DNA of 64,000 bases, taken from the NCBI GenBank assembly GCA_009746045.1, contig RPFO01000310.1:690234-754233 (forward strand), written 5' to 3'. The position numbers and the translations under genes are program-made. Under the pieces are notes generated by a model. It had not been told where the DNA came from. It made no database searches and worked only from the letters and a program-made list of their open reading frames with translations. The DNA is from Mesostigma viride (taxonomy: Eukaryota; Streptophyta; Mesostigmatophyceae; Mesostigmatales; Mesostigmataceae). How positions within the stretch are numbered: position 1 is the stretch's first letter; each line of letters begins with the position of its first letter. Below, in pieces: positions 527-61,266 of the stretch.

Positions 527-700
527 AGGGGGGACATGCCCCTGGATCTTGCCGAGAAATATAAGGAAACGGACGTAGCACAGATCTTGCGTCATGCTGC
601 AGCTAAGCCAACAGTGGCCCAACCGCCGGTGCAACAGCCACCTGCCGCACCAAACAAGCCGCAGGTGCAACACCGGACTGACCCAGCTGAGGGAAAAGCA
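527..700 (+). CDS. Gene A, ankyrin C-cap and Pro-rich linker exon (58 codons)
   Basis: This internal exon is preceded by an AG acceptor (ttgcag) and followed by a GT donor (gtgagt). It is phase 0 at both ends. The first 24 residues resemble the last, capping ankyrin repeat: a PLDLA start helix, then a short helix ending ILRHAA. The rest is a linker rich in Pro, Gln and Ala, containing VQQPP. The frame joins directly to the large exon at 4,849, which is also phase 0. The ankyrin exons that should precede it lie before the window. The copy at 32,362-32,535 has the same length and boundaries. Exon boundaries are inferred from splice motifs and conservation, without transcript data. Confidence 0.75.
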
Positions 701-4848: not shown

Positions 4849-7800
4849 GCTATGAAGGATGCTTTTGCAGAGATAGACTGGCCTGCCTGCCAGTTGAATC
4901 CTCAACCTGGCCTGCTCTCAAGCCTGGAGGGTAAAGTAACCATCATGCAAGGAACCTGGACAGTTGCGCAGCTGGCCCACCGCATGGGGGTGGTGGTGAG
5001 GGGCAGCGCCTTGAATGCGGCGAGATTGGGCACAGAGCTTAGGCAAGAGGATCAGCGCAACAGGGAGCAGCTGGCCCAGGCGCAGGCACAAGAGGACGTC
5101 ATGCACCGCAAGCTGGCCCACCTTCGCCAGAACAGCACGGACGTGGCTGCGGCAAGGGAGCGGGATGAGGCGGTGCAGGCATATGCGAGCAGCCTTCAGG
5201 CTCTGCGTGAGACTTTGGAGAAGAAGGCAGGCCTGTCGGAGCAGCAACTTAAGCAGCAGCTGACGCTGAAGGAAACCATGGGTTTGTTTGACAACAGCCA
5301 AGAGACACTGCCTGCTAGCGATGCGGGGAAAGGCCCTGAGCTAGACATGAAGGCAACCGGCCAGCTGGCGCTTGAGCAGCTGAGGGAGGTGATGAAGGAC
5401 TGCAATGATGAGCTGATGCCTGCAGCGGTGGCTACACAGAAAGCAATGGAGCATTTGCAGGCGTGCTTGGAGAAACAGGAAAGCATCGCAGCGAAATTGC
5501 GGGGTCGGCTGGATGCTGCCGTCCAATCAGGGCAGCGGTTTGCAGCCTCGGTGCTTTCCCAGCTGAAGGGTGAGACTCCCGAGGAGGATGGCAGACATGC
5601 ACGCAAGATGTCAGAGATAACGTCCTTGCGTGAGAAGGAAGTGCGCAAGATGATGGCCCTGCGAGAGAGCATCCCAGGGACCCTGTCTCGCCTGGCCGCT
5701 GGTCAGCATGAGAGTAAGCTGATCCAGCGACAGCTCAGAAACACGCGCCTGGACATCTTGGACGCGGTGGATGATGGGCGCACGGGGCAGCTGCAGCAAC
5801 TCAAGGAGAAGGAGAGGGTGCTCCTGGAGCAAGCCTCCAAGTTGGCTGCGGAACAAGCCACACTGTCCGAGTCGTTGGCGGATGCCAAGCCGCAGCAGTG
5901 GTACCCGGACTTGCTGGCGCAAGAGGAGCGCATCAAGGAGCTGCACAAATTCTTACCTGCAGGCGCCAGCAGGGACCTGATTGACAACGAGTGGAACCTG
6001 TCCAAGTTCCGCGATAGCCCTGGGACCCCCTTGGTGTCGGCAAGGGGGGCGTGGCGGGTGAGGTTGGTGGAGGACTGGAACGGGAAGAAGTGGGTGGTCA
6101 AGGAGATGGGGCCAGGGCCGGAGTTGCGGCGGGAGGTCCACCGGCTGAAGGCGTTGCAGCACCCGCTGGTGATCCCCCTGGAGCGGGTGTTCATCGATAA
6201 CAACGTGGCCTACCTGCAGATGCCTTACTACAAGAACGGGAACCTGCGTGGCTGGGTTGACAGCATCGTGGGCGGCCAGAAGGGGGCAGCGTGCCTGACC
6301 ATCCAGCAGGGTGCGCAGGTCTGGAGCACGATGAAGCAGGTCTTCCAGGCGGTGGCCTTCCTCCACCGCAAGGGCATCGTGCACCGCGACCTCAAGCCGG
6401 AGAATGTGCTGCTGCAGGATGACGGCCAGATCGCGCTGTGTGACTTTGGGGTCAGCCACGATGTGCTGGCACACCTGCAGACGACCAAGGCAACGCTGGC
6501 CATGGGGGGACATACCGCGTGCTATGCCGCCCCGGAGGTGCTTGCAGGGAAGGGCGTGTCCGCAAGCAACCCGTACACGGAGGACCTGTGGTCCCTGGGG
6601 GTGATGCTGCTGGAGCTGGCAGGGACCCGGCTGTCTTGGAACCCGACGACTTCCCGCATGGAGGATGAGCTGGGTCGCCCCATCAACACGGCCGACCTGC
6701 TGGTGGGCAAGTCCAAGTGGCACCGTGATCTGATCACCCTGGCTGACTCCCTGCTTCAGAAGGACCCTGACGCCCGGCCCAGCGCTGACGCGGTCCTTGC
6801 AAGCGAGTTCTTCCAGCAAGACCCGTCTGCCAGCCAGGTGCAGCAGAATCGCCACCTGCTGCTGCTGACTAGCCACCTGGCGAAGCTGCGGCAGAGCCCT
6901 CAGGGTGGCGGGCGGCCCAAGACCCACGTGATGAGGTTGGACGTGCGCGAGGGGCCCGGCATGGTTGCCCCGGTGCTGGCGCTGTTTGCTCGGGAGGACG
7001 TCAAGCCCGAGGAGACCGTGGTGGGCGAACATGCGGGCGTGCGCATCCCTCTCTCCGAGGTGCTCCACAACTTCTTTGAGGCGGTGGTGCTGCCCGCTGC
7101 AGGCCTGTTTGAGCAGGGCAAGGGGGATGGCGAGGATGCCAGTGGGTCTGGAGCGGCCTCCCAGGTGCGCGAGGGGGTGGCCTTGCTTCCAAGGGCTTAC
7201 CAGGCGAGGGGTACCAAGGCCACGAAGAGCCACCGGCAGCGGCTGCGCACGGTGGGCAAGATCTTGGCCAAGGCGGTGCTGCAGTGCATCCACGTGCCGG
7301 TGCAGTTTTGCAGCGCGCTCTTCTGTGCGCTGGTGGCCAAGGATGACCTCACGCAGTACAGCACGGCCGACTGCCTAGAGATGCTGGCGGAGTTTGACCC
7401 CACCGATGCGCGCCGCATGCGTGTCACGCTGGCCATGAAGCACGGGGACGGCGAATCGGGGATCACCCTGGGGGCCCTCATGGGCGATGCCGGCGCGGAC
7501 GAGACCCTCATGACGGATGCCAACAAAGACCTGCTCGTGCGCAAGGCGATCCACCACCGCCTGGTCTTGACGCGGGCGGCCGAGCTCGCAGAGGTGCGCG
7601 CCGGCTTCCTGTACCTCGACTGGGAGCCCCTGCTGGGTGTGCTGTCGCCGTTTGACCTGATGACCCTCTTCTTTGGGACGGACTACTTGGACGTTAGCCA
7701 CATAAGCCAGGCATTCCAGCTGGACACGTCCAGCTGGGAGGGCAGGGAGGTGCAGGGGAAGCAGGCGTGGGAGTGGCTGCAGCGCTTCCTGCATGAGGCC

Positions 7801-8301
7801 TCGGAGACGTCCCTGCGCCTGTTCAGCATCTGCGCGCTGGGCGGCGCCAAGTCCTGGTGGTCGGGCATGTGTGCCGTGAAGAGGCTGACCTCTGCCAGCA
7901 ACGGGGGCCTGCCGGAGTTCTCCCGTGAGTCAGGCTCCCTGTACCTCCCTCTCCCCGGTAACGACGGCTGCCCCTCGTACGAGGCGTTCAGCGCGCGCAT
8001 GTTTGCGGCGCTCAAGGTGCACGGGGAGTACGGCCAGCGCACCGAGGCGCAGCGTGCCCAGAAGATGGGCATGGAGGAGATGCAGGGTGTGGTGCGGGCG
8101 ATGGCGGGGCAGGTGAGGGCGGGGGGCTGGTACCGCTGCCCCAACGGCCACCTGTACTGCATCACCGAGTGTGGCGGTGCCATGCAGGAGAGCACGTGTC
8201 CCACCTGCGGGAAAGGCATTGGTGGGAGCCAGCACCGGTTGAGGGGTGACAATGCGAATGCTCTGGACGTGGATGGGGCGCAGAGACCTGCATGGAACTG
8301 A
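4849..8301 (+). CDS. Gene A large 3' exon: coiled coil, protein kinase, HECT-like domain, RZ zinc finger
   Basis: This 1,150-residue exon follows a ccatgcag acceptor. Residues are counted from 4,849. About 1-395 are Gln/Glu/Leu-rich and predicted coiled coil. About 400-655 form a Ser/Thr kinase: Lys418 in VVKEM, HRDLKPEN at 512-519, DFG at 532-534 and APE at 561-563. A Gly-rich loop is not obvious. About 690-1,065 resemble a HECT domain: an LRTVGKILAKAV helix, the DLTQYSTAD stretch and a C-lobe ending near LPLP. The Cys expected before LxLP is absent. The C-terminus is an RZ finger: C1097-x3-H1101-x15-C1117-x2-C1120, as recalled for RNF213/ZNFX1 ligases. It probably couples phosphorylation to ubiquitin transfer (inference). 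If unspliced, an ATG lies at 4,843. The gene B copy is colinear and equally long. The stop is TGA. Confidence 0.85.
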   Translation, partial: AMKDAFAEIDWPACQLNPQPGLLSSLEGKVTIMQGTWTVAQLAHRMGVVVRGSALNAARLGTELRQEDQRNREQLAQAQAQEDVMHRKLAHLRQNSTDVAAARERDEAVQAYASSLQALRETLEKKAGLSEQQLKQQLTLKETMGLFDNSQETLPASDAGKGPELDMKATGQLALEQLREVMKDCNDELMPAAVATQKAMEHLQACLEKQESIAAKLRGRLDAAVQSGQRFAASVLSQLKGETPEEDGRHARKMSEITSLREKEVRKMMALRESIPGTLSRLAAGQHESKLIQRQLRNTRLDILDAVDDGRTGQLQQLKEKERVLLEQASKLAAEQATLSESLADAKPQQWYPDLLAQEERIKELHKFLPAGASRDLIDNEWNLSKFRDSPGTPLVSARGAWRVRLVEDWNGKKWVVKEMGPGPELRREVHRLKALQHPLVIPLERVFIDNNVAYLQMPYYKNGNLRGWVDSIVGGQKGAACLTIQQGAQVWSTMKQVFQAVAFLHRKGIVHRDLKPENVLLQDDGQIALCDFGVSHDVLAHLQTTKATLAMGGHTACYAAPEVLAGKGVSASNPYTEDLWSLGVMLLELAGTRLSWNPTTSRMEDELGRPINTADLLVGKSKWHRDLITLADSLLQKDPDARPSADAVLASEFFQQDPSASQVQQNRHLLLLTSHLAKLRQSPQGGGRPKTHVMRLDVREGPGMVAPVLALFAREDVKPEETVVGEHAGVRIPLSEVLHNFFEAVVLPAAGLFEQGKGDGEDASGSGAASQVREGVALLPRAYQARGTKATKSHRQRLRTVGKILAKAVLQCIHVPVQFCSALFCALVAKDDLTQYSTADCLEMLAEFDPTDARRMRVTLAMKHGDGESGITLGALMGDAGADETLMTDANKDLLVRKAIHHRLVLTRAAELAEVRAGFLYLDWEPLLGVLSPFDLMTLFFGTDYLDVSHISQAFQLDTSSWEGREVQGKQAWEWLQRFLHEASETSLRLFSICALGGAKSWWSGMCAVKRLTSASNGGLPEFSRESGSLYLPLPGNDGCPSYEAFSARMFAALKVHGEYGQRTEAQRAQKMGMEEMQGVVRAMAGQVRAGGWYRCPNGHLYCITECGGAMQESTCPTCGKGIGGSQHRLRGDNANALDVDGAQRPAWN

Positions 8302-11246: not shown

Positions 11247-11248
11247 GC

Positions 11249-15150: not shown

Positions 15151-15154
15151 GGTC

Positions 15155-15835
15155 CCGTGTGACCAGTCAGGATGTTGGGTGGAGCTGTAGTTGCATGATG
15201 AACAGGCGGAGAGTGCTCTATCATGCGCCAATGTGAGGTCGGGTGTTATACAAGTTGCGATGTTGGGTGGAGCTGTGGTTGCGTGACGAACAGGCGGAGA
15301 ATGCTCTATCATACGCCAATGTGAGGTCGTGTGTTATACCAGTCAGCATGTTGGGTGGAGCTGTAGTTGCGTGACGAACAGGTGGAGAATGCTCTATCAT
15401 ACGCCAATGTGAGGTCGGGTGTTATACCAGTCAGGATGTTGGGTGGAGCTGTGGTTGCGTGACAAACAGGTGGAGAATGCTCTATCATACGCCAATGTGA
15501 GGTCGGGTGTTATACCAGTCAGCATGTTGGGTGGAGCTGTAGTTGCGTGACCAACAGGTGGAGAATGCTCTATCATACGCCAATGTGAGGTCAGGTGTTA
15601 TACCAGTCAGCATGTTGGGTGGAGCTGTGGTTGCGTGACAAACAGGCGGAGAATGCTCTATCATACGCCAATGTGAGGTCGGGTGTTATACCAGTCAGCA
15701 TGTTGGGTGGAGCTGTAGTTGCGTGACAAACAGGCGGATGAATGCTCTATCATACGCCAATGTGAGGTCGGGTGTTATACCAGTCAGCATGTTGGGTGGA
15801 GCTGTATAGTTGCGTGACACGCGGGTGGAGAATGC
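15155..15835. repeat. 88-bp minisatellite, about 7.5 units
   Basis: The unit contains atgctctatcatacgcc and ttgggtggagctgt. Starts of the first motif at 15,213, 15,301, 15,389 and 15,477 give a constant 88-bp period. Small differences (acgaacagg, acaaacagg) distinguish units. Copy 2 carries the same array at 41,705-42,640 with more units. It is not coding, since 88 is not a multiple of three. Confidence 0.95.
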
Positions 15836-16129
15836 AACTATCTGTGGCTCTTGCTTGAGGAGTGCCAGAAGAGCAGGTGAGGACATGGGGACGAAGCGAT
15901 AGTGTCGAGGGGGGCGGCATGGGGGTGACAAGCATGTCCTGCTCAGGTGCAGAGGAAACAATCGCAAGGAAGAAGCATTCAAACGACAAAACAAAGACCT
16001 TTCCCCGGAAATATTTGGAGACTTTTGCTGTGTCAGCACAATGTGCCAAGGAATCATGCAAGGAAGGTTTAACCAGGTCTACTTCATCAACATTCCTGCC
16101 TTTGTACCCTTGCTAAGGGAAAAGGGGAA

Positions 16130-17320: not shown

Positions 17321-17337
17321 GAAACAGGCAGGGTCGC

Positions 17338-21887: not shown

Positions 21888-21983
21888 GCCGACAACCCGC
21901 TGCACAAGGCATCCGTGGAAGGCAGTTTGGATGTCGTCCGGCAACTCCTCGCGAGTGGTGCAGACATAGAGGCCAAGGATAAG
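21888..21983 (+). CDS. Gene B ankyrin-repeat exon 1 (32 codons)
   Basis: The acceptor is cattcag, the donor gtcagtg, and the exon is phase 0 at both ends. It encodes one ankyrin repeat with NPLHKAS, LDVVRQLL and SGADIEAK. At 32 codons it is one residue short of the usual 33, because the first loop is deleted by a codon relative to its partner at 45,434. This is the first ankyrin exon I can find in gene B. The upstream start exon is not identified. Confidence 0.75.
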
Positions 21984-23099: not shown

Positions 23100-23195
23100 G
23101 ATGGGTGCACCCCGCTGCATTGTGCATCAACGAAAGGCCATCTGGAGGTTGTCCGGCATCTCATCGCAAGCGGCGCGAATGTGGACGCTAAGAGC
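23100..23195 (+). pseudogene. Gene B ankyrin-repeat exon 2, splice donor lost
   Basis: After a ccctcag acceptor the frame encodes a good ankyrin repeat (TPLHCAS, LEVVRHLI, SGANVDAK). The position that is gtcagt in sister exons reads gttcatag here. From that point the sequence stops matching copy 2 until about 23,495. The exon has thus lost its normal donor in a rearrangement that also removed a unit kept in copy 2 (48,574). It may be skipped; being phase 0, skipping would not break the frame. Confidence 0.6.
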
Positions 23196-24144
23196 GTTCA
23201 TAGCTCACGGATATTTTTTGCCTTCTCAAGTGTGAGCAAAGTTTCTCAACTGCTGTGTAGCAACCAAGCCACATGATGCCGATAATGTATGTGGGGAAGG
23301 AAGATGGGGTGATGGACTTTACCACGCTGTCTAATTCATCCCCAGCGTTGAACTTAGCCGGCGTTGAGATAGCTGCCCTCATGAGCCAACGCTTGTGGCC
23401 AACGCTTGTAGCCAGAGGAACACGATGGGGCCAATAAGATGACAGGATCAGGAAATTGCGCGGTGATGATCGCGGCAATGGCGAGAAAAGTTTCTTAGCT
23501 TGAGAGTGGTGCAAGGAGAAGAACCTGTATCACGCTTGTGCATATCCTTTGGCCTCCTTTCTCTGACATCCCCGACTCCTTACCTCCCTTTAACCGTGAG
23601 GAAAAACATTATGTTTCTGTGTATTTGGGCACAGGTTTGTATCCCTCTTCTTGTCATGCCGTGGGATGTCTCCTCCCAGCCATGTGCATGCGCAGTTCCC
23701 GAACGTCTGCGAAGCTTTTGTCCCCGAGTGCGAAAGACATGTGCTCAGTGGGCTATTGTCCCGTGGTCCATCTCTGCATTTTGGACCTTCCCTATGGCTT
23801 GGCACGGCAGGTAGTGATAGTTGGGAGAGATCCATCCACGTCTTCACTGTCCCGGGGCCCGCTGTCACAGCCAGATCTCAGCAGGCTGTGGGTGGTAGCC
23901 GTGGACACGATATGGCATGGAATGGCAGGCGTGGCTTGGGTTGGCTTCATGCACCAACTCGGAGGTCGGCTTGTCAAGACAGTGGCAGTGACAGTGATCA
24001 GGTGCAGTGGCGGTGTCGATTGGTGCGGGATCCTTTTTGCTGCAGAACATGACGGGTTCCTGTGAATGCTGACATGTCCATGTGTTGCGTGGCTGTTGTC
24101 ATGCGCCTGGGTTGTCACGGGACTTGTGCGGCTGCTACCTTCAG

Positions 24145-24243
24145 GATGGGACTACCCCGCTACATGAGGCGTCAAGTGGTGGCCATCTGGATGTCGTCCA
24201 GCATCTCATCATAAGCGGTGCAGATGCGAACGCCAAGGACAAT
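24145..24243 (+). CDS. Gene B ankyrin-repeat exon 3 (33 codons)
   Basis: The acceptor is ccttcag, the donor gtccgt, phase 0 at both ends. It encodes a canonical 33-residue repeat: DGTTPLHEAS, then HLDVVQHLI, then SGADANAKDN. The residues before the first helix and the GAD-N turn fit the ankyrin consensus. It shares the gtccgt donor and upstream intron block with exon 49,517 of gene C. Confidence 0.8.
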
Positions 24244-24759: not shown

Positions 24760-24858
24760 TCTGGGAATACCCCGCTGCATCACGCATCAAAGGGTGGCCA
24801 TCTGGATGTCGTCCAGCATCTCATCGCCAGCGGCGCAGACGTGAACGCCAAGAGCAAT
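24760..24858 (+). CDS. Gene B ankyrin-repeat exon 4 (33 codons)
   Basis: The acceptor is gatccag, the donor gtcagt, phase 0 at both ends. It encodes SGNTPLHHAS, HLDVVQHLIAS and GADVNAKSN. The intron just before it repeats the block that precedes exon 3 (cacgggacttgtg and the motif tgctgacgtgtccatg), showing a module of about 0.6 kb. Gene C seems to have fused the equivalents of exons 3 and 4 into one at 49,517. Confidence 0.8.
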
Positions 24859-25369: not shown

Positions 25370-25468
25370 GGTGGGGATACCCCGCTGCATGGGGCGTCAT
25401 ACTATGGCAATCTGCATGTCGTCCAGCATCTCATCGCCAGCGGCGCTGATGTGAACGTCAAGAACAAG
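25370..25468 (+). CDS. Gene B ankyrin-repeat exon 5 (33 codons)
   Basis: The acceptor is cctctcag, the donor gtcagtg, phase 0. It encodes GGDTPLHGAS, NLHVVQHLIAS and GADVNVKNK. Its partner in gene C is 61,168-61,266. The intron before it, at about 25,101, is the intact version of the site where the Copia element sits in copy 2 (ggcaggatatctc). Confidence 0.8.
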
Positions 25469-31221: not shown

Positions 31222-31320
31222 ACAGAGGATACTCCACTGCACTATGCATCAATTTGTGGGCATCTGGATGTCGTCCAGCATCTTATCGCAATCGGCGTGG
31301 ATTTGAACGCCAAGAACGAG
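31222..31320 (+). CDS. Gene B ankyrin-repeat exon 6 (33 codons)
   Basis: The acceptor is ggatccag, the donor gtaagt (the best consensus donor of the set), phase 0. It encodes TEDTPLHYAS, HLDVVQHLIA and GVDLNAKNE. It is the most diverged ankyrin unit and the last one before the cap exon at 32,362, as expected for an older end repeat outside the homogenised block. Confidence 0.78.
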
Positions 31321-32040: not shown

Positions 32041-32237
<197 letters not shown>

Positions 32238-32361: not shown

Positions 32362-32535
32362 AGGGGGAAAACGCCACTGAATCTGGCCGAGCAATGGAGG
32401 AAACCGGACGTAGCACAGATGTTGCGTCATGCTGCGGCCAAGCCAACAGTGGCCCAGCCACGGGTGCAACAGCCACCTGCCGCACCAACCAAGCCACAGG
32501 GGCAACACCTGACCGACCCAGCTGAGGGAAAAGCA
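32362..32535 (+). CDS. Gene B, ankyrin C-cap and Pro-rich linker exon (58 codons)
   Basis: The acceptor is gattgcag, the donor gtgagt, phase 0 at both ends, with exactly the length of the exon at 527-700. The start TPLNLAEQW and DVAQMLRHAA fit a final ankyrin repeat with its capping helix. A linker with VQQPPAAP follows. It joins ankyrin exon 6 (31,222) to the kinase exon (34,191) without a frame change. Differences from gene A are mainly substitutions in the first helix (EQWRKPD for EKYKETD). Confidence 0.77.
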
Positions 32536-34190
32536 GTGAGTGCGGAAAATCATTGTAATATTGCCCTCTGCAAAGCCACTTAGTAGCTTTCCAAGTACAC
32601 TTGGAGCTAAGCACGCCCTTTGTGACGAAGTGCTTGCATCTGGCACGTTCAGGGATTGTGACTTCTTGTATCTCTGCAGAGCACAACTACTTGTACATTA
32701 AGTAGGGTGGCACCCCGAAACTGAAAAACTGAAGACTGGCGATAGCCCTGGTGGAACGTCATGCGTTGCGATGACACTTAGAGCCCTTGTTGGCATGTTT
32801 GTCCATGATGGCGATGGCTTTCTTCTTTGAATGCGTGCTCAGAGTGTGACATATCCTCATTTTAGCTTTGCTCAATATGCCAGTGTGGGCGGTACCTAGT
32901 GGTCGCGATGGCTCACCAGGGACATACTAGCGATGTCGTTTGGGCTCGTTTGTCATGCTCTTATTAGTGGACTAGTACTACTAGAACTGCTGCCCATGCC
33001 TGGCTAGGTACTTTCTACGCTGCCTGCAGCAGCTGCATGTTTTGCTTCTGCATGTCACAATTACAAATAGCCATGTGTTGCAGCTCTGTTGCCTGCGTGA
33101 AAGCGTTGGTGCTTTTTGTAGCACCAGCTGCTACGAAAAAGAAAAGGCGGTAAAGATGGAGAGAGTGCATGTTATGCCACTATATCCGCATCAGCAGTGT
33201 CGTTTCGAGTAGAGTAAGTGGTGCCGTTTCTTCAGGAAATCGCTGCTTTGTTTTCAAACGGAGCTTAGGCTGTAAAATAAGGTATGTATGCGCTGATCGA
33301 CTGTCTCTAGCTAGGCAGCACTCATTGTCTCGGCAATAAATGATGGAAGCATGATAGGCTGAGGATAACTTACTACAACCGTGAAGTGAGGGCAATGTCA
33401 AGTTGAGTGGCATCGAAAAATCATATTTATAATTTCAAGGCTGCTGGGATAATAGATAGTAGTGTCATAGGGAGTCAGATGGCCAGGGCTGGAGCTTTTT
33501 TAAATCAATTTTCCGTCGAGCTGCCGGGCCAGCTGGTGACTTGCCATGCTGTATTTATTCAGCACAAAGTTCTGCAGAGAGGCTGCTGCATAAATTCAGC
33601 TTGGGAGCCTGCACCACTTACATAATCACACGATGGCCGTTAACGGGCTTGGTCCTTGTGAAATGCGGTTTGGGGGGGGTTGTCAAGTTAGTTATGAAGT
33701 GGTTGGTAATTGACTAGGCGTCTCACCATATTCCGGCAATGCATGTCACCGATTGCTTAACCGTCCATTTTTTCATACACAACCCCTTCATTTTTTTTCC
33801 ACGTCTGTGCGAGTGCTTTGGTTCAGGGCAGGAATGCCTGACAGCCTTCTGAGGCCCTCAGCCCTGACACAAGCATAGTCATCCTCACCCCATTTCCTAT
33901 CGCTTCCTTACCCCAAATCGGCCAACTCCCATCCCCGGCTGCTATCCATGGACGTGCGAACCTAGGGTGGGTGTCAACATGTTACTGAGTTAGAACCCAA
34001 AACACTTACTAGGAGCCCAGCTGGAACATATGTGACGTAGGGTGCCCGAATCTCAATGACATGCTGCCCCAGGCACTTCCTTTGCCATTATTGAACCTTG
34101 GAAACATTAATTTCCTGTTCTCCATCCTACATCCTGACGGTAGGAATTTCCTGACCTTATTATTTGCTTGTGCTGGATTGGACCATGCAG
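32536..34190 (+). other. Intron of gene B (1.65 kb), non-coding
   Basis: No gene. It matches the flanks of the gene A intron and shows the empty site for the LTR-like insert at about 33,367. It ends with the acceptor gaccatgcag. Confidence 0.65.
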
Positions 34191-37100
34191 GAGATGAAGG
34201 ATGCTTTTGCAGAGATCGACTGGCCTGCATGCCAATTGAATCCCCAACCTGGCCTGCTCTCCAGCCTGGAGGGTAAAGTAGCCATCATGCAAGGAACCTG
34301 GACAGTTGCGCAGCTGGCCCATCGTATGGGGGTGGTGGTGGAGGGCAGCGCCTTGAATGCGGCGAGATTGGCCACAGAGCTTAGGCAAGAGGATCAGCGC
34401 AGCAGGGAGCAGCTGGCCCAGGCGCAGGCACAAGAGGACGTCATGCACCGCAAGCTGGCCCACCTTCGCCGGAACAGCACGGACGTGGCTGCGGCAAGGG
34501 ACCGGGATGACGCGGTGCAGGCATATGCGAGCAGCCTTCAGGCTTTGCATGAGACTTTGGAGAAGAAGGCAGGCCTGTCAGAGCAGCGACATAGGCAGCA
34601 GCTGACGCTTAAAGAAACTATGGGTTTGTTTGACAGCAGCCAAGAGACATTGCCTGCTAGCGATGCGGGGAAAGGGCCTGAGCCAGACATGGAGGCAACC
34701 GGCCAGCTGGCGCTGGAGCAGCTGAGGCAGGTGGTGAAGGACTGCAATGATGAGCTGATGCCTGTAGCGGTAGCTACACAGAAAGCAATGGAGCATTTGC
34801 AGGCCTGCTTGGAGAAACAGCAAAGCATCGCAACCAAATTGCGGGGTCGGCTGGATGCTGCTATCCAATCAGGGCAGCGGTTCGCAGCCTCAGTGCTTTC
34901 CCAGCTGAAGGGTGAGACTCCCGAGGAGGATGGCAGACATGCAAGCAAGATGTCAGAGATAACGCGGTTGCAAGCAAAGGAAGTGCGCAGGATGATGGCC
35001 CTGCGAGAGAGCATCCCAGGGACCCTGTCTCGCCTGGCGGCTGCCCAGCAGGAGGGTAAGCTGATCCAGCGACAGCTGAGGGATACTCGCAACCAAATAA
35101 AAGACGCGGAGGATGATGGGCGCACAGGGCAGCTGCAGCAGCTCAAGGAGAAGGAGAGGACGCTGCTGGAGCAAGCCTCCAAGTTGGCTGCGGAACAAGC
35201 CACGCTGTCTGAGTCGTTGGCAGATGCCAAGCTGCAGCAGTGGTACCCCGACTTGCTGGCGCAGGAGGAACGCATCAAGGAGCTGCACAAGTTCTTGCCT
35301 GCAGGGACCAGCAGGGACCTCATGGACAATGAGTGGAACCTCTCCAAGTTCCGCGATAGCCCTGGGACCCCCTTGGTGTCGGCAAGAGGGGCGTGGCGGG
35401 TGAGGTTGGTGGAGGACTGGAACGGGAAGAAGTGGGTGGTGAAGGAGATGGGGCCGGGTCCGGAGTTGCGTCGGGAGGTCAACCGGCTGAAGGCATTGCA
35501 GCACCCGCTGGTGATCCCCCTGGAGCGGGTGTTCATCGATAACAACGTGGCCTACCTGCAGATGCCCTACTACAAGAACGGGAACTTGCGCGGCTGGGTT
35601 GACAGCATCGTGGGCTCCCAAAAGGGGGCAGCGAGTCTGACCACCCAGCAGGGTGCGCAGATCTGGGCCACGATGAAGCAGGTCTTCCAGGCGGTGGCCT
35701 TCCTCCACCGCAAGGGCATCGTGCACCGCGACCTCAAGCCGGAGAATGTGCTGCTGCAGGACGACGGCCAGATCGCGCTGTGTGACTTCGGGGTCAGCCA
35801 CGATGTGCTGGCACACCTGCAGACGACCAAGGCAACGCTGGCCGTGGGGGGATACACCGCGTGCTATGCCGCCCCGGAGGTGCTTGCGGGGAAGGGCGTG
35901 TCCGCAAGCAACCCGTACGCCGAGGACCTGTGGTCCCTGGGGATGATGCTGCTGGAGCTGGCAGGGACTCGACTGTCTTGGAACCTGACGACCTCTCGCC
36001 TGGAGAATGAGCAGGGTCACCCCATCAACACGGCCGACTTGCTGGTGGGCAAGTCCAGGTGGCACCGCGATCTGATCACCCTGGCTGACTCCCTGCTTCA
36101 GGTGGATCCTGATGCCCGGCCCAGTGCTGACGCAATCCTTGCCAGCGAGCTCTTCCAGCAAGACCCGTCCGCCAGCCAGGTGCAGCAGAACCGCCATCTG
36201 CTGCTGCTGACCAGCCACCTGGCGAAGCTGCGGCAATGCCGTCAGGTTGGCGGGCGGCCGAAGACCCACGTGATGAGGTTGGACGTGCGCGAGGGGCCAG
36301 GCATGGTTGCCCCGGTGCTGGCGTTGTTTGCTCGGGAGGACGTCAAGCCCGAGGAGACCGTGGTGGGCGAACATGCAGGCGTGCGCATCCCTCTCTCCGA
36401 GGTGCTGCACAACTTCTTTGAGGCGGTGGTGCTGCCCGCTGCTGGCCTGTTTGAGCAGGGCAAGGGGGATGGTGAGGATGCCAGTGGGTCTGGAGCGGCC
36501 TCCCAGGTGCGTGAGGGGGTGGCCTTCCTTCCCAGGGTTTGCCAGGCGAGGGGCGCCAAGGCCGTGGAGACCCACCGGCAGCGGCTGCGCACGGTGGGCA
36601 AGATCTTGGCCAAGGCGGTGCTGCAGTGCATCCATGTGCCGGTGCAGTTTTGCAGCGCGCTCTTCTGTGCGCTGGTAGCCAAGGATGACCTCACGCAGTA
36701 CAGCACGGCCGACTGCCTGGAGATGCTGGCGGAGTTTGACCCCACCGATGCGCGCCGCATGCGCGTCACGCTGGCCATGAAGCACGGGGATGGCGAATCG
36801 GGGATCACCCTGGGGGCCCTCATGGGCGATGCCGGCGCGGACGAGACCCTCATGACGGATGCCAACAAAGACCTGCTCGTGCGCAAGGCGATCCACCACC
36901 GCCTGGTCTTGACGCGGGCGGCCGAGCTCGCAGAGGTGCGCGCCGGCTTCCTGTGCCTCGACTGGGAGCCCCTGCTGGGTGTGCTCTCGCCGTTTGACCT
37001 GATGACCCTCTTCTTTGGTACGGACTACCTGGACGTCAGCCGCGTCAGCCAGGCGTTCCAGCTGGACACGGCCAGCTGGGAGGGCAGGGAGGTGCAGGGG

Positions 37101-37643
37101 CAGCAGGCGTGGGAGTGGCTGCAACGCTTCCTGCACGAAGCCTCGGAGACGTCCCTGCGCCTGTTCAGCATCTGCGCCCTGGGCGGCGCCAAGTCCTGGT
37201 GGTCGGGCATGTGTGCCGTGAAGAGGCTGACCTCTGCCAGCAACGGGGGCCTGCCGGAGTTCTCCCGGGAGTCGGGCTCCCTGTACCTCCCTCTCCCCGG
37301 TAACGACGGCTGCCCCTCGTACGAGGCGTTCTGCGCGCGCATGTTTGCGGCGCTCAAGGTGCACGGGGAGTACGGCCAGCGCACCGAGGCGCAGCGCGCC
37401 CAGAAGATGGGCATGGAGGAGATGCAGGGTGTGGTGCGGGCGATGGCGGGGCAGGTGAGGGCGGGTGGCTGGTACCGCTGCCCCAACGGCCACCTGTACT
37501 GCATCACCGAGTGTGGCGGTGCCATGCAGGAGAGCACGTGCCCCACCTGCGGGAAAGGCATTGGCGGGAGCCAGCACCGGTTGAGGGGTGACAATGCGAA
37601 TGCTCTGGACGTGGATGGGGCGCAGAGACCTGCATGGAACTGA
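34191..37643 (+). CDS. Gene B large 3' exon: coiled coil, protein kinase, HECT-like domain, RZ zinc finger
   Basis: Same length (1,150 residues), same acceptor and same domain order as 4,849-8,301. The coiled coil is about 1-395, the kinase about 400-655 (VVKEM, HRDLKPEN, CDFGVSHD, AAPEVL all kept), the HECT-like domain about 690-1,065, and the RZ finger at the end (C-x3-H-x15-C-x2-C). Compared by eye with gene A, replacements cluster in the coiled coil (about 40 in 400 residues). The kinase has about 19 in 260, and the HECT-RZ part about 15 in 460. No indel or stop has arisen in either copy, which suggests both are constrained. Here the full gene, with ankyrin exons from 21,888, lies in the window, so this is the best model of the protein. 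Its 5' exon remains unknown. Confidence 0.87.
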   Translation, partial: EMKDAFAEIDWPACQLNPQPGLLSSLEGKVAIMQGTWTVAQLAHRMGVVVEGSALNAARLATELRQEDQRSREQLAQAQAQEDVMHRKLAHLRRNSTDVAAARDRDDAVQAYASSLQALHETLEKKAGLSEQRHRQQLTLKETMGLFDSSQETLPASDAGKGPEPDMEATGQLALEQLRQVVKDCNDELMPVAVATQKAMEHLQACLEKQQSIATKLRGRLDAAIQSGQRFAASVLSQLKGETPEEDGRHASKMSEITRLQAKEVRRMMALRESIPGTLSRLAAAQQEGKLIQRQLRDTRNQIKDAEDDGRTGQLQQLKEKERTLLEQASKLAAEQATLSESLADAKLQQWYPDLLAQEERIKELHKFLPAGTSRDLMDNEWNLSKFRDSPGTPLVSARGAWRVRLVEDWNGKKWVVKEMGPGPELRREVNRLKALQHPLVIPLERVFIDNNVAYLQMPYYKNGNLRGWVDSIVGSQKGAASLTTQQGAQIWATMKQVFQAVAFLHRKGIVHRDLKPENVLLQDDGQIALCDFGVSHDVLAHLQTTKATLAVGGYTACYAAPEVLAGKGVSASNPYAEDLWSLGMMLLELAGTRLSWNLTTSRLENEQGHPINTADLLVGKSRWHRDLITLADSLLQVDPDARPSADAILASELFQQDPSASQVQQNRHLLLLTSHLAKLRQCRQVGGRPKTHVMRLDVREGPGMVAPVLALFAREDVKPEETVVGEHAGVRIPLSEVLHNFFEAVVLPAAGLFEQGKGDGEDASGSGAASQVREGVAFLPRVCQARGAKAVETHRQRLRTVGKILAKAVLQCIHVPVQFCSALFCALVAKDDLTQYSTADCLEMLAEFDPTDARRMRVTLAMKHGDGESGITLGALMGDAGADETLMTDANKDLLVRKAIHHRLVLTRAAELAEVRAGFLCLDWEPLLGVLSPFDLMTLFFGTDYLDVSRVSQAFQLDTASWEGREVQGQQAWEWLQRFLHEASETSLRLFSICALGGAKSWWSGMCAVKRLTSASNGGLPEFSRESGSLYLPLPGNDGCPSYEAFCARMFAALKVHGEYGQRTEAQRAQKMGMEEMQGVVRAMAGQVRAGGWYRCPNGHLYCITECGGAMQESTCPTCGKGIGGSQHRLRGDNANALDVDGAQRPAWN

Positions 37644-38995: not shown

Positions 38996-39029
38996 AGTAG
39001 GCGTGGTAAGGTGCTGCCGTGTCGAGTTG

Positions 39030-39373
39030 TTGAGTTGAGTTGAGTTGAGTTGAGTTGAGTTGAGTTGAGTTGAGTTGAGTTGAGTTGAGTTGAGTTGAGT
39101 TGAGTTGAGTTGAGTTGAGTTGAGTTGAGTTGAGTTGAGTTGAGTTGAGTTGAGTTGAGTTGAGTTGAGTTGAGTTGAGTTGAGTTGAGTTGAGTTGAGT
39201 TGAGTTGAGTTGAGTTGAGTTGAGTTGAGTTGAGTTGAGTTGAGTTGAGTTGAGTTGAGTTGAGTTGAGTTGAGTTGAGTTGAGTTGAGTTGAGTTGAGT
39301 TGAGTTGAGTTGAGTTGAGTTGAGTTGAGTTGAGTTGAGTTGAGTTGAGTTGAGTTGAGTTGAGTTGAGTTGA
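39030..39373. repeat. (TTGAG)n microsatellite, about 69 units
   Basis: A near-perfect 5-bp array of about 344 bp. Copy 1 has only a few degenerate units at the same place (about 12,986-13,010). Confidence 0.97.
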
Positions 39374-41704: not shown

Positions 41705-42640
41705 TGACCAGTCAGCATGTTGGGTGGAGCTGTGGTTGCGTGACGAACAGGTGGAGAATGCTCTATCATACGCCAATGTGAGGTCGGGTGTTATACCAGT
41801 CAGCATGTTGGGTGGAGCTGTAGTTGCGTGACAAACAGGCGGAGAATGCTCTATCATGCGCCAATGTGAGGTCGGGTGTTATACCAGTCAGCATGTTGGG
41901 TGGAGCTGTGGTTGCGTGACAAACAGGCGGAGAATGCTCTATCATACGCCAATGTGAGGTCGGGTGTTATACCAGTCAGCATGTTGGGTGGAGCTGTGGT
42001 TGCGTGACGAACAGGTGGAGAATGCTCTATCATACGCCAATGTGAGGTCGGGTGTTATACCAGTTGTGATGTTGGGTGGAGCTGTAGTTGCGTGACAAAC
42101 AGGCGGAGAATGCTCTATCATACGCCAATGTGAGGTCGGGTGTTATACCAGTCAGCATGTTGGGTGGAGCTGTGGTTGCGTGATAAACAGGCGGAGAATG
42201 CTCTATCATACGCCAATGTGAGGTCGGGTGTTATACCAGTCAGCATGTTGGGTGGAGCTGTAGTTGCGTGACGAACAGGCGGAGAATGCTCTATCATACG
42301 CCGATGTGAGGTCGGGTGTTATAACAGTCAGTAGGTTGGGTGGAGCTGTAGTTGCGTGACGAACAGGTGGAGAATGCTCTATCATACGCCAATGTGAGGT
42401 CGGGTGTTATACCAGTCAGCATGTTGGGTGGAGCTGTAGTTGCGTGACGAACAGGTGGAGAATGCTCTATCATACGGCAATGGGAGGTCGGGCGTTATAC
42501 CAGTCAGCATGATGGGTGGAGCTGTAGTTGCGTGACGAACAGGTGGAGAATGCTCTATCATACGCCAATGTGAGGTCGGGTGTTATACCAGTTGCGATGT
42601 TGGGTGGAGCTGTAGTTGCGTGATGAGCAGGTGGAGAATG
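41705..42640. repeat. 88-bp minisatellite, about 10-11 units
   Basis: Same family as 15,155-15,835 with about three more units. Unit variants (gcgtgacgaacagg, gcgtgacaaacagg, ccagttgtgatg) are shuffled relative to copy 1, as expected from unequal exchange. Confidence 0.93.
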
Positions 42641-42934
42641 CAACTATCTGTGGCTCTTGCTTGGGGAGTGCCAGAAGAGCATGTGAGGAAATGGGGACGA
42701 AGCAGTAGTGTTGGGGGGGGCGGCATGGGGGTGACATGCATGTCCTGCTCAGGTGCAGAGGAAACAATCGCAAGGAACTGGCAGTCAAACGACAAAGCAA
42801 AGACATTTCCCCGGAAATGGACGAGTCCTTTGTCTCAGCACCACAAAGGGATCATGCAGGGAAGGTTTAACCAGGTTAATTACTTCATCAGCATTCCTGC
42901 CTCTGTACCCTTGCTAGGGGAAAAGGGGAAACGC

Positions 42935-45433: not shown

Positions 45434-45532
45434 GCCGTCTTCACCCCACTGCACAAGGCATCAGAGGAAGGCCGGTTGGATGTCGTCCGGCAACTCCTCG
45501 CGAGTGGTGCAGACATAGAGGCCAAGGATAAG
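45434..45532 (+). CDS. Gene C ankyrin-repeat exon 1 (33 codons)
   Basis: The acceptor is gcgttcag, the donor gtcagttc, phase 0. It encodes FTPLHKAS, LDVVRQLLAS and GADIEAKDK. It keeps the codon missing from exon 21,888 in gene B. It is the first recognisable exon of gene C, which continues beyond 64,000. Confidence 0.77.
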
Positions 45533-47546: not shown

Positions 47547-47649
47547 GTTGGGTACACCCCGCTGCATCGCGCATCAACGAAAGGCCATCAGACTGGAGGT
47601 TGTCCGGCATCTCATCGCAAGCGGCGCAGATGTGGAGGCCAAGGATAGG
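47547..47649 (+). pseudogene. Gene C ankyrin-repeat exon 2, 4-bp insertion
   Basis: Between the acceptor gctctcag and donor gtcagtg the exon is 103 bp instead of 99. Four bases (agac) are inserted in the middle of the repeat (ggccatcAGACtggagg against ggccatctggagg), so the second half is out of frame: TPLHRAS is readable, but the LEVVRHLI helix is shifted. If included it would break the reading frame of gene C. Confidence 0.65.
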
Positions 47650-48573: not shown

Positions 48574-48672
48574 GTTGGGAGTACTCCATTGCATTATGCA
48601 TCAAGGAACGGCCACCTCGATGTCGTCCATCATCTCGTCGCAAGCGGCGCAGACGTGAACGTCAAGGACGAT
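48574..48672 (+). CDS. Gene C ankyrin-repeat exon 3 (33 codons)
   Basis: The acceptor is gcctccag, the donor gtcagtg, phase 0. It encodes VGSTPLHYAS, HLDVVHHLVAS and GADVNVKDD. It has no counterpart in gene B, where the block between 23,195 and 23,495 is rearranged. It shows that exon number differs between the duplicates. Confidence 0.78.
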
Positions 48673-49516: not shown

Positions 49517-49615
49517 GATGGTTGGACCCCACTGCATTTTGCATCATCCAACGGCCATCTGGATGTCGCCCAGCATCTCATCGCCAGCGGCGCAGACGTG
49601 AACGCCAAGAATAAT
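49517..49615 (+). CDS. Gene C ankyrin-repeat exon 4 (33 codons)
   Basis: The acceptor is gttccag, the donor gtccgt, phase 0. It encodes DGWTPLHFAS, HLDVAQHLIAS and GADVNAKNN. Its upstream intron matches the one before exon 3 of gene B, while its downstream intron matches the one after exon 4 of gene B, so it looks like a product of unequal exchange between two modules. Confidence 0.8.
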
Positions 49616-49837: not shown

Positions 49838-50454
49838 AGTTAACGTAAAGGATTTACGTTAGATGGATAGAGATTGTTACGCTCTTTCCAACGGCACCTT
49901 GAACGCCTCATTTGGTTAAGGAACGTAAAAGTTATGACGTTTCCTAGGCTGTGCCGACAGTACCCGGCGCGCCACTGTGGGCGCGTACGGACACAGGATG
50001 TACAAGTGTCACTTTGATAGTCCGCAGGACGTTGACAGGACTTGTACAGGACTTGATGGTCAATTGATAGGTAGGCGTGCTGTAGCGCGCCAGGACCTAT
50101 GGGACAATTGATGCTGAGTAGTGTACGGATAGGTCCACAGGACTAGCCGTATGGACAATTGATAGATCTGCGCGCCAAAGGCGCGCCAGAGTCTGTGTAA
50201 TCAATTGATTGACAGTTCAGCTGTGACAGTGCAGCTGAATACTTGGACGCGTCCCTAGCAAGCTATATGAGTGACTTGGTCACACCGGGACGCTAGTTCT
50301 TGCGTGCACGTTCTCTTGGCACTGCGACCCTGTCGTCTGTGCTGCGTGCAGTCTTGGAAGTGACGTGACTTACGTCTGTGTTTCCTTGTTATTAATAAAG
50401 GCAACTTCCTGCAAGAACCATGGCGGAATTCGTGGCATTCTTACCCTCACAACT
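49838..50454 (+). repeat. Copia 5' LTR
   Basis: 617 bp, AGTTAACG...TCACAACT, with a 4-bp terminal inverted repeat. A TATA-like ctatatga lies at 50,263-50,270 and AATAAA at 50,394-50,399, consistent with promoter and poly(A) functions. It differs from the 3' LTR at 50,087 (G; T at 60,525). An ATG in good context (accatgg, 50,420) starts a short frame that runs out of the LTR. Immediately after the LTR there is no TGG start of a usual primer-binding site. Confidence 0.93.
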
Positions 50455-50478
50455 CGTATTACACGCTCTGTTAAAAAG

Positions 50479-51188
50479 ATGCCAAATTCTGAAGAATTCC
50501 GGATTCCCGATGACGAGGAAATAGCCGCTCCGCCGGCTGGTCCTTCGTCAAGACCGACTGCGCCGTCGTGGCAGCAATTGCTCGACGAAGTTACGATCTC
50601 GCTCGACGAGCTTCATCGTCAACAGCGCGCAGCTCACCATTGCTCGGGGATAACCCCGAGGACCCCGATTTGCCAGCACTGGTGCCGGCAATCCGCAACC
50701 TGTTGGACCAGATTCGAAACATTTTATCGACATTTACGGTCCAGGTGCGGGGAGGTTTGCGGTCGGTGACCGAAGTCACGACTGCCATTGAGGAGTTGGA
50801 CAACGTCCTCTCTTCACTCACCGGTTACCAGAGAAACCTGCAAAACTGGGCATCGCTACGCACGGGGGGCGCGCCGGCGGTGTCAACAAATTTGTTTCAA
50901 GATCTTGCGCTGCTATCGCTGCTCACTCGCGGCGTACGCAGTCGCGAGCGCCAGGTTTTAATTAACCTGGTGGCATTTCTCGCCTCTGTGCGAGAGTGGA
51001 TTCCCGCGGGGTGGGAATTATTGACGATCTTTACACATCCTCTGCGCCTCGTCGCGCGTCGGCGCGTCGCAACTTACGCGGCGGGGAGCACACCGGTTTT
51101 AATACATACCGGTGCAGGTCCGGAGCTGGATATGGAGGATCGTGAGTTCGTATACACGTACTGCGACTTCAGGGGCCTTGACTACTAG
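50479..51188 (+). pseudogene. Copia extra ORF upstream of gag, one frameshift
   Basis: An acidic, Pro-rich start (MPNSEEFRIPDDEE) at 50,479 is followed by SWQQLLDEVTISLDELHR. Near 50,635 the sensible frame shifts, and continues as PEDPDLPALVPAIRNLLDQ to the stop TAG at 51,186-51,188. The joined product would be about 235 residues, helical, with no domain I recognise. Two further in-frame stops and 166 bp separate it from gag. Standard Copia elements have no such ORF, so it may be a lineage-specific accessory protein or an extended gag N-terminus. Confidence in coding is moderate, and low in function. Confidence 0.5.
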
Positions 51189-51354
51189 TCGGCCTAATTT
51201 TCTTTTGCAGTACTCGTCGACATTTTTTTTGTCGAATTTTCAGCGGCAATTCGGGGGCGGCAGCGACACCGGCGCAGGCGGCAGTGCGACACAAATTTTG
51301 TACATATTTTCTGCTGCTTTGCTAAGGTGTTCTTTGAATAGCTTGTAGTGCAGG

Positions 51355-52454
51355 ATGGCTGAGGGACGCCGTAGCAAGGGTCCAGCCAGTGGGAATAATA
51401 ATGGGGGTGCTGGTAGTGGAACCGCTCACGTAGATGACGTGGGGTTACCGGAGAGATTACCAACCTTCCTCACAATAATAATAATGCACAAGCTGTTCAT
51501 GGCTTTGATCTTACCACACAGGGTCTTTTAATTGTCAATCAGCTGCAGCCTGTAACCTCAGACTCCAAGCCTAAGCAGGCTGAAGAGTTTGTGGAAGGAT
51601 TGGAAGGGTTCCCTAGCTTGTACGGTGGTACAAATTACTATCAAATCTGGATAGGAAGTAGCACTTTTGGCAAGTGTACTGACCAGATTAAGGACCTAAC
51701 CAGGGAGTGCAAGAAGGCCAATAAGGCCTGGGCACTGTACGTAGCTGAGCTGAAGGAGCTGCTGGAAGACCAACGCAAGAAGGTCGGCATCCATTGGCAG
51801 GACAAATACCAAGGGTGGGAGGTCAAGGGGGACCTGATCCAGAACTTTCTCAACTATTGTAAGATGGTTGAGGAGGGCAGGGCTCACGGCTTTAATGTCG
51901 CTGATAACATAGCCCTAACCAACTGGCTCAAGGTTTCTGGGCTGGATAAGGCGACACGTGGCTCCTTAAAAGTCATGTGTGCCCCACACTCTACCCTGAA
52001 GGCCTACAAGGTCATCATTAAACAAGCACTCGAGGCAGAGGAGCTGTTTGAGGGTGGAGTGCCAGCAGTGAAGGCTACCCAGGCAGGCGGGCGTACCCAG
52101 GGTGGCTCCAAGACGTCTGAGGCTGACCGAAGCCAAGGAGGGCGTAGGGGCAACCATAACAAGCGCAAGGGAGATCATTCACCTGATTCTGACAGGAGGT
52201 CACACTCCAAGTCGGTGTTCAGGCGGGTGGGTGGTCAGCCCAAGCAGGGCAACGCGTCTGACAATGGGGGCAGTGGCCAGGGCAAGTCCAAGATACAATG
52301 CTACCTGTGCAAGGGGTGGGGGCACATCAAGAAGGAGTGTCCCAGCTTCAAGAAGTCCCAGGGCCAGGGCAGCAACAAGAAGAAGAACAACAACAAGTCC
52401 CAGGCAGGCCAGCCTTCAAAGGGCAGTCAGCAAGAAGACAACAAGGAGCAGTGA
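51355..52454 (+). CDS. gag: Copia gag with CCHC zinc knuckle, frameshift near its start
   Basis: An ATG at 51,355 opens a frame (MAEGRRSKGPASGNNNGG) that must shift near 51,445 to enter the long frame ending in TGA at 52,452-52,454. The main body has a capsid-like helical region (about 51,600-52,050), then a basic, Gly/Ser-rich segment. The zinc knuckle CYLCKGWGHIKKEC (C-x2-C-x4-H-x4-C, near 52,300) follows, and a Lys/Asn-rich tail. It packages element RNA. The frameshift could be mutation, sequencing error or programmed; I see no obvious slippery heptamer. After the TGA the same frame stays open into pol. Confidence 0.8.
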
Positions 52455-55400
52455 CTGTCTGAGGCAACCCCTACACACCTTAATTCACCCAAGGGGGAGG
52501 CCAGGTGCTCCAATGCAGATTTTATATCTGGGCAACAAGAGGGTGATCTCCAGGTTCAGTGTGGCCCCAGGTCACCTGGAGAGGTACAGGTTCCTATGAA
52601 GACGTCCTTGACAGCTGGTGCAGCTGTAAGAATGTCTGACCCCATGCATCCTCGTGCTGGGCACGAGGGTGGACCTCTCATTTTGAGAGAAACCAATGTA
52701 CAACCACAGAGGGGTGTGAAGGCCTCTGGTGGTATGCATGTGGTCCCTGCTGGCGGTCCAGGTGTTGGGCATGAGCAGGGTGACTCAGGCTCTGAGTCAG
52801 AACAGGATGGAAGTCAGCATGGTGATGCTGGACAACCTGACAGCACAGTCCTGACTGTGCCAGGGACTGCTTCCTCTGTGTACCAGGAGTTGGGTGCCCG
52901 AATCCACAACATGTTTGGGCATGCCACTTCTCTGTCAAACAACTTTGCCTTCCGTATGGGCAGGGCACCCCTTCTTAAGGCGTGTCAGCAAGCTGCCTCA
53001 CGGTGTAAGTGCCAGTTGTCCTCCAACAAGCCCAGGAAATCACATGCCAAAGCTCTACCTCAGAGCATTGGTGATCTGCAGTGTGATATCCAACACATCA
53101 GGGGCATGCAACTGTTGGTGTGCGTGGACAGGTACACGAAATACAAGGTGCTGGAGCATTTACCTTCTATGAAGAACAGGTACTTGCTGGCTGCCCTGCA
53201 GAATGTAAGAGCCAAGTTTCCTACCACAAGGATCCAGGTGGACATGCAGTTTCAGCATCTCAAGGGTGATCCTACCCTTCCTGAGTTGCTGGTTACACCT
53301 AGGGAGGCTCATGGGCAGCAGGGTGCTATCGAGAGGGCAATCCAGGAGGTCAAGAAATTGATCATCTCTGAAGACTGGGTACCCTTGTCTGCACCTGCAC
53401 TTGTCAGGAGTGCATGGCTGAGGAACGTGGAGCAGCAGCTGAACAGCAGGGTTAACTTCTACTATGATGGAGTTGCTGTCAGCCCAATGGGTCTATATCA
53501 TGGCCTGTGCCCACCACATGTGCTGGAGGGCTGGAAACATGCTGCACATGTCACCTTTGCCAAGCTGAGGGAGAAGGACCGGGGTTGGAAGATGCTGGAG
53601 CCACAAGTGGGTCAGAAGGTCCTAGCTTGGAAGGAACCTAGCCTTTATGGCAAACGTGGTAGCTGGAGTCCTGGGGTGGTTACCCAGGTTGATGAAGCTA
53701 GCCACGCATGCTTGGTCAGCATGGAGGACGAACCAAAGCATGTGCACCGGCTGAGTTGGTCATATGTCAAGCCTAACCTGATGAATGAGGGCAGTCAGGC
53801 ACAAGGCTCACAGGATCTGCAGGATTTTCAGGTCCCAGGTGACATCACTGACGCAACGACCACATCTGTTGCAGGGGAATCTGTCAGCCCTGGCCAGGTT
53901 GCAGAGGTACTTGTTGAACAGGCTGCAAGGTCAACAGCTGGGGAGTCAACTGTCAAGCCCAAGGCACTAACCAAGCCCAGGGGGACAAGTTTGGCTGGAT
54001 TGATTGGGGCTCTACAAAGGGCCAAGAAGCAGCCCAAGGTAGCCAAGCTCAGGTGGCATGGCAATCTGGGGCTGGACACTGCCTTAGAGGTAGACACTAA
54101 TTCTCAGGTTTCCATCATTGGGACCAGGGCTGCAGCAGGGTACAGCATGTCTGAACCCAGCTATCAGTTTGTGTCTGACTTCAGTGGCGGGGTACACGTG
54201 AAGGTACTGGGTGAGGTATTCATTCCTATCCTTGGACAGGACACTGCTTTTTGTGTCTTGGAGGGCTATCAAGGACCTGCTCTTCTGGGGCAGAATTTCC
54301 TATGCCAGGATGGAGTAGTGATCACGTCCTCTCTCCTGACTAAGGAAGGGGCTGGTCAGGTCCCACTGATTAATTTCAGGACCACTCACCTATCACGTGC
54401 AGTAACCAGGTCGGTTAACCCATAGTCCGGGAATGGGTTTTTGGCATTTTTAGACCCCTGAAAATGGAAAAAATCATAACTCATAGGCCACAACTCCAAA
54501 TACCCCCAACCAAGGTGCTAGGAGTATCTACACTTCAAGGGCTTTCAGAAAATGCAATAATATCCCGAGTCCATTCAGTGCTTTGCAAGATATTTACTGC
54601 CAAAGTTGGACAAAAGACGATCATTTTCAGGCAAGGGAAATCCCCTTAGTAGTTTACCCCTGCAGGGAGGGTTCTAAAAAATTATTCTGGGGTTGGACAA
54701 TGTCAGTAGATAGTGCCACCATGCTTTCCTTGGGTCAGACCGCACGGATAGCCCATCTGACCTATATAATGCGCTCACTTACGTGTGTGGGTTACGCGCG
54801 CGTAAGCAGCCATCCATGAAATGCCACACACTTATGCATTGTATACAGCCACATAGGACTGTAAAAAGTGCTGGGAAACAAAGAAGTGCTAAACCAGCAC
54901 TAACGGAATGGCATCCTCCAAAGAAACACCACAAACTGAGCAGATTTGGGGCTAATAGCACTCATACAGCAGGCATGGAAACCTGCTGCAAGAGGCACTG
55001 ATACACTCGTGTAAAATGGATGTATAAACGACAGATTCCCGTGCAAACGACATGCAAACACGTTGCCGTACCTGGCTTGATCACGACCTTTCCGGGTTCT
55101 GCTGGCCGGGACCCTCATATCTCACACTGGCTAATGCTTTCCAGGCATAGGCCGCCATAGCCGCATAATGCATGCATCCGACATGATTACCAGGTTGATG
55201 TTCTGTGCAAAGATGACCTATAAACGCATCCGAATTCACAGGGACGCTGCTGCGGATGTCCCGTACCAAACCTGGGTGCTCGGGCTGGCGCAGACTGCCG
55301 GGCCATAAGAAGAAAATCGAAATATGGCATGCCATTACTCATCTGGTACTGACGACCAAGAAAGCAGTAATGTCCTACCTGTATTTTACCAATGCTATAC

Positions 55401-60271: not shown

Positions 60272-60275
60272 TTGG

Positions 60276-61167: not shown

Positions 61168-61266
61168 TGTTGGTGGACCCCGCTGCATTGTGCGTCCAGC
61201 AACGGCAAGCTGGATGTCGTCCAGCATCTCATCGCCAGCGGCGCAGACGTGGAGGCCAAGGGCAAT
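61168..61266 (+). CDS. Gene C ankyrin-repeat exon 5 (33 codons)
   Basis: The acceptor is tgcctcag, the donor gtcagtg, phase 0. It encodes CWWTPLHCAS, KLDVVQHLIAS and GADVEAKGN. It pairs with 25,370-25,468 of gene B. The Copia element lies between this exon and 49,517, lengthening the intron to 11.6 kb, which may impair splicing or transcription of gene C. Confidence 0.8.

Follow-up and report, generated by a model that had tools for sequence, protein, structure and literature searches.

The 64-kb window of the Mesostigma viride genome analysed here (C1107:690,234-754,233; positions below are counted from its first letter) holds a gene, gene B, whose last exon, 34,191-37,643, encodes in a single open frame a coiled coil, a protein kinase, a HECT domain and an RZ finger, followed by the stop. 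This architecture is not due to chance, because 34 long copies from across the genome can be aligned over their whole length and carry the same catalytic residues. The family numbers about 40 copies, gene B among them, and roughly half stand in a single tandem array; it is kept intact by selection. Tentatively, and at somewhat less than an even chance, we propose that these genes form a tandemly expanded family of intracellular sensor-enzymes, which would combine an ankyrin sensor, a kinase and a composite HECT-RZ ubiquitin ligase without the canonical HECT cysteine.

Domain order, copies and conserved residues

The open frame spans 34,155-37,643 on the + strand, and its protein (P0001) has 1,152 codons counted from Met34,185. 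The exon contains the following features:

34191..37643, +, last exon of gene B, running from the coiled coil through kinase, HECT and RZ finger to the stop, from open frame, Pfam and acceptor
34191..35369, +, coiled-coil-like linker, P0001 residues 3-395
35370..36155, +, protein kinase, residues 396-657 (Pfam 427-657)
36282..37382, +, HECT fold, residues 700-1066 (Pfam 789-994)
37269..37271, +, Glu1029, under the HECT catalytic Cys in HMMER and hhalign alignments
37311..37313, +, Cys1043, C-lobe cysteine, invariant in 34/34 copies
37440..37598, +, RZ finger, residues 1086-1138; zinc ligands C1099, H1103, C1119, C1122
37512..37514, +, Cys1110, equivalent to RNF213 nucleophile Cys4462, 11 residues after the first ligand
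37575..37577, +, His1131, equivalent to RNF213 base His4483, 32 residues after the first ligand

Pfam matches on P0001 cover the kinase at residues 427-657 (E 4.2e-38), HECT at residues 789-994 (32.2 bits against a cut-off of 23.9, profile positions 35-234 of 306) and the RZ finger at residues 1086-1138 (73.4 bits against a cut-off of 27). The coiled-coil-like linker gave no Pfam family above cut-off, and no AAA core, helicase or RING was found by Pfam in the last exon, to which this result is confined; an AAA core may still lie in 5′ exons beyond those read. Since the RZ finger lies C-terminal to HECT in P0001, HECT is not at the C terminus, unlike in the definition of HECT E3 ligases. An earlier sequence-only reading had placed the exon at these coordinates and noted its kinase and RZ motifs, and all three observations hold. 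The boundary reads AG/GAG at 34,190/34,191, in phase 0, and fits the GT donor after 32,535; the kinase catalytic Lys and αC Glu as well as the HRD, DFG and APE residues are kept in 34/34 copies; and the RZ motif is as described.

Copies were sought across 440 Mb of genome, in which 52 RZ matches occur on 23 contigs, 37 of them in open frames of at least 1,100 aa. The C1107 array holds 22 RZ matches, arranged head to tail and all on the + strand over 658 kb (653,891-1,311,697), with 18 in frames of at least 1,100 aa. HECT matches number 66, and one is found within 2 kb of 41 of the 52 RZ matches, including all 22 in the array. Neither search gave any match in 14 control genomes. The aligned set comprises 34 of the 35 long frames other than L055 and L056, one array copy having been fetched only in part. 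Identity to P0001 is 90-95% for the array copies, 72-83% for four copies and 36-44% for thirteen. L055 (413-4585) and L056 (441-4505), which lie on other contigs, are also long open frames, but in these Pfam detects the RZ finger and neither a kinase nor HECT; the spelling of their RZ finger looks to us like that of RNF213, which would presumably put RNF213-type genes in the same genome. A protein scan of viral contigs gave no relative and the strict RZ pattern no match there, while five viral-contig matches to a looser pattern were by eye not RZ proteins; prokaryote genome contigs likewise yielded no relatives.

Invariant in 34/34 copies are kinase residues K420, E431, H514, D516, K518, N521, D534, G536 and E565, RZ residues C1099, H1103, C1110, C1119, C1122 and H1131, as well as Cys1010 and Cys1043. 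The glycine-rich loop GxGxxG of the kinase is found in 0/34, which counts against our proposal. The ratio of nonsynonymous to synonymous substitution rates (dN/dS) in the array is 0.251 (Nei-Gojobori, ratio of means over the 136 pairs of 17 array copies); by part it is 0.337 for the coil, 0.202 for the kinase, 0.180 for HECT and 0.031 for the RZ finger. A search of solved structures matched the RZ part to RNF213 (E 5.3e-6), and the six RZ residues have the same spacing as mouse RNF213 Cys4451, His4455, Cys4462, Cys4471, Cys4474 and His4483. In mouse RNF213, Cys4462 acts as the nucleophile and His4483 is proposed as the base (PMC12075652).

The HECT fold and its catalytic position

The region that had been called HECT-like proved to be a HECT N-lobe by sequence. 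In a profile search of the PDB, 41 of 42 matches were HECT ligases, and the predicted fold of the region matches HECT in Foldseek at 4e-12 (a first structure predicted from two sequences, with a predicted local distance difference test score, pLDDT, of 37, was not used). A HECT C-lobe follows the N-lobe, clear only in the predicted fold and, for one of ten other copies scanned, by Pfam (L050, profile positions 35-298).

HMMER alignments of two family profiles with UBR5 and hhalign comparisons with six C-lobes concordantly put Glu1029 under the catalytic Cys, with the motif LP-x4-C-x3-L-x-x-P set against LPEFSRE-SGS-LYLP. Across the copies aligned, this column holds E (28), G (3), N (2) or R (1) and never Cys. 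Because these best-agreeing alignments place Glu, not Cys, at the HECT catalytic position, the earlier claim of two ubiquitin-ligase modules is doubtful: the RZ finger has a complete catalytic set in 34/34 copies, but in HECT Glu1029 and Cys1043 compete for the position. Loss of the canonical HECT catalytic Cys is the interpretation that we prefer from the alignments, without regarding it as proven.

Several results weigh against this preference. The Glu1029 alignments are weak: against one target HMMER gives E 0.004 and 0.007, and hhalign gives a probability of 1%. Cys1043 comes under the HECT Cys in three of five global alignments, those with NEDD4L, NEDD4 and E6AP; of the other two, TRIP12 puts Gly1031 there and UFD4 is misplaced. 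The C-lobe itself is faint by sequence: the five global alignments were matched by 543, 193, 205, 268 and 65 of 1,000 shuffles, the window stretch scored -1.0 bits against a profile built from five solved C-lobes, a value reached by 1,071 of 3,309 scored shuffles (5,000 made), the C-lobe profile A6 had no match against the PDB at E up to 10, and hmmscan of three C-lobe pieces gave none. The invariant Cys1043 could be a nucleophile that has moved.

Accepting the latter leads to an alternative that we consider unlikely, namely that both ligase modules are active, with Cys1043 as the HECT nucleophile (or, in the dispersed copies, Cys 1031/1032) and the RZ finger as a second activity. The invariance of Cys1043 in 34/34 copies and its place in the three global alignments speak for it, as does a Cys at 1032 in 10/34 copies and at 1031 in 2/34, all among thirteen dispersed copies. 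However, the thirteenth of these has Tyr at 1032 and the remaining 21/34, window copies included, have Ser; the global alignments are no better than shuffles; and HMMER and hhalign agree on Glu1029, with Cys1043 falling beyond the strand after the HECT Cys.

Ankyrin exons, exon join and repeat variation

Upstream of the last exon, gene B has these ankyrin exons:

21888..21983, +, ankyrin exon 1 (32 aa, 96 bp)
23100..23198, +, ankyrin exon 2, without a clear donor
24145..24243, +, ankyrin exon 3 (33 aa, phase 0)
24760..24858, +, ankyrin exon 4 (33 aa, phase 0)
25370..25468, +, ankyrin exon 5 (33 aa, phase 0)
31222..31320, +, ankyrin exon 6 (33 aa, phase 0; Pfam Ank 6.4e-10)
32362..32535, +, degenerate last ankyrin repeat and proline-rich tail (174 bp, phase 0, AG and GT flanks)

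The 99-bp phase-0 exons at 24,145, 24,760, 25,370 and 31,222 are preceded by AG and followed by GT; the exon 32,362-32,535 scores 13.9 bits on Pfam Ank, below the cut-off of 21.1. The predicted exon boundary at 34,191 is well supported. The join 32,535/34,191 is in phase 0 on both sides, and CAG stands exactly at the acceptor in 16/17 array copies, L074 having GAG. Of the 17 aligned non-array copies, two (L051 and L052) have CAG at the acceptor column, and in thirteen dispersed copies the exon start is not alignable. The upstream phase-0 ankyrin exons and their join to 34,191, as earlier proposed, agree with matching phases and the conserved acceptor.

It is very improbable that the last exon is instead a separate gene starting near Met34,185, with the ankyrin exons in another transcript. 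An in-frame ATG is present at 34,185, and the dispersed copies lack an alignable exon start and an acceptor at that column. Yet six array copies (L062, L066, L067, L068, L070 and L073), in which the upstream sequence differs, are without Met34,185 and keep CAG, and the same-strand ankyrin exons run into the last exon in phase 0, bar the unclear donor of exon 2. The order ankyrin-kinase-HECT-RZ, the exon join and the idea of a sensor are supported as predicted anatomy. Ankyrin exons were read within the window only, which limits what our proposal can claim for the family.

Variation among the repeats was measured on the nine complete 99-bp exons of the window, leaving out the 96-bp, frame-broken and degenerate ones. 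Positions 1, 3, 8, 11 and 12 have entropies of 2.4-2.7 bits; T4, P5, L6, H7, A9, S10, G13, L15, V17 and others are invariant. The ratio of nonsynonymous to synonymous proportions (pN/pS) is 0.93 at positions 3, 8, 11 and 12 versus 0.44 over the rest of the exon. Positions 3, 11 and 12 correspond to randomised binding positions of designed ankyrin proteins. This pattern supports, rather than shows, a diversified recognition repertoire. Against such a repertoire, 0.93 is not above 1, pS is near saturation at 0.72, and the positions were picked after the variation had been seen.

A lineage-specific amplification serving housekeeping, mating or self-recognition and not antimicrobial defence, with ankyrin variation arising by drift and gene conversion, seems improbable to us. 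The value of 0.93 fits relaxed constraint, and dispersed copies exist beside those of the array. On the other hand, the variation is focused, because the rest of the exon has a pN/pS of 0.44, and positions 3, 11 and 12 are among those randomised in designed binders.

The window also contains parts of two neighbouring genes, of which the first, gene A, ends in a second intact copy of the last exon:

527..700, +, equivalent in copy A to exon 32,362-32,535, still in frame because its two 1-nt indels compensate each other
4849..8301, +, last exon of gene A (P0002), protein 94% identical
45434..45532, +, ankyrin exon of the next gene
47547..47646, +, ankyrin exon of the next gene, frame broken, neighbours intact
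48574..48672, +, ankyrin exon of the next gene
49517..49615, +, ankyrin exon of the next gene
61168..61266, +, ankyrin exon of the next gene, whose next RZ match lies past the window end (C1107:779,260)

Genes A and B differ with a dN/dS of 0.226, and the gene A copy lies within a duplicated unit of about 30 kb. Large minisatellites at 15145-18728 and 41707-42648, with units of about 78-88 bp, partly match in their places in two duplicated units. A direct repeat (985/990 bp, 99.2% identical, about 0.45 kb apart) lies within 10262-12682. Pure arrays of GGCT (32060-32236) and TTGAG (39028-39370) are located just upstream of the degenerate ankyrin exon and after gene B, respectively. Between two ankyrin exons of the next gene is a young long terminal repeat (LTR) retrotransposon (49838-60892), with 617-bp LTRs that are 99.84% identical, a 5-bp target-site duplication (GATAT), and zinc-knuckle and RVT_2 matches that are both under their cut-offs.

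Proposed mechanism and relation to known systems

Our proposal starts from what is observed, namely the domains, exon phases, copy number, selection and invariant residues. Variable ankyrin repeats, one per phase-0 exon, would bind a target; the kinase, which has its catalytic residues and lies behind the coiled coil, might gate the ligase or mark the target. The HECT fold without its canonical cysteine would dock the ubiquitin-conjugating enzyme (E2) charged with ubiquitin, and the RZ pair Cys1110/His1131 would take the ubiquitin and transfer it either onto the target that is bound or onto the sensor protein. We infer by analogy that the HECT N-lobe docks E2-ubiquitin for Cys1110, because RNF213 docks its E2 apart from the RZ cysteine. 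The role may be immune-like or one of non-self recognition.

To our knowledge, a chain that combines HECT and RZ downstream of ankyrin repeats and a kinase is new; the single domains are all known. The open-licence PMC literature searched contained no paper joining RZ-type, HECT, ankyrin and protein kinase. The same order may occur in other eukaryotes.

The closest known counterparts are RNF213 with ZNFX1, HACE1, and the candidate ROCO receptors of brown algae. In RNF213 the E2 docks on the C-terminal domain and the RZ finger gives the catalytic Cys, these being separate parts (PMC12075652). RNF213 and ZNFX1, which are E3 ligases with an RZ finger that act in animal innate immunity, share with gene B four zinc ligands and the Cys/His pair at equal spacing; they differ in that gene B has ankyrin repeats, a kinase and a HECT fold, and no AAA core, helicase or RING in its last exon. 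HECT ligases bind the E2 through the N-lobe, and in HACE1, an ankyrin-HECT ligase, substrate binding is the task of the ankyrin scaffold (PMC13196369). HACE1 and gene B have both ankyrin repeats and a HECT domain in common, but HACE1 has the catalytic Cys, whereas here another domain comes after HECT. HACE1 has, as far as we know, neither a kinase nor an RZ finger. Candidate immune receptors of the ROCO type in brown algae are exon-shuffled, with one repeat per in-phase exon, and form an expanded family with variable repeats (PMC11378527). These three features of repeat, exon and family recur here, although the ROCO proteins are described as having leucine-rich repeats and a GTPase with 72-bp phase-2 exons, in contrast to 99-bp phase-0 ankyrin exons and a kinase-HECT-RZ output. 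In a lichen alga, ankyrin and kinase families are reported to be expanded, and HECT is not mentioned there (PMC6652019).

A more far-reaching possibility, which we hold to be rather doubtful, is a new kind of ligase in which a HECT fold gave up its own cysteine and relays ubiquitin from the E2 to an RZ finger fused to it; coupled to a kinase and an ankyrin sensor diversified exon by exon, it would serve inside the cell as an immune repertoire distinct from the animal and plant systems. Two cysteine-based E3 types occur in one chain, in which the RZ site is conserved and the HECT site may have been lost. Because both share a chain, the family offers a direct test of how the RZ finger receives ubiquitin and of the evolution of E3 mechanisms. 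RZ-type ligases would also reach beyond animal immunity, into a large and diversified family of sensors in a different eukaryote.
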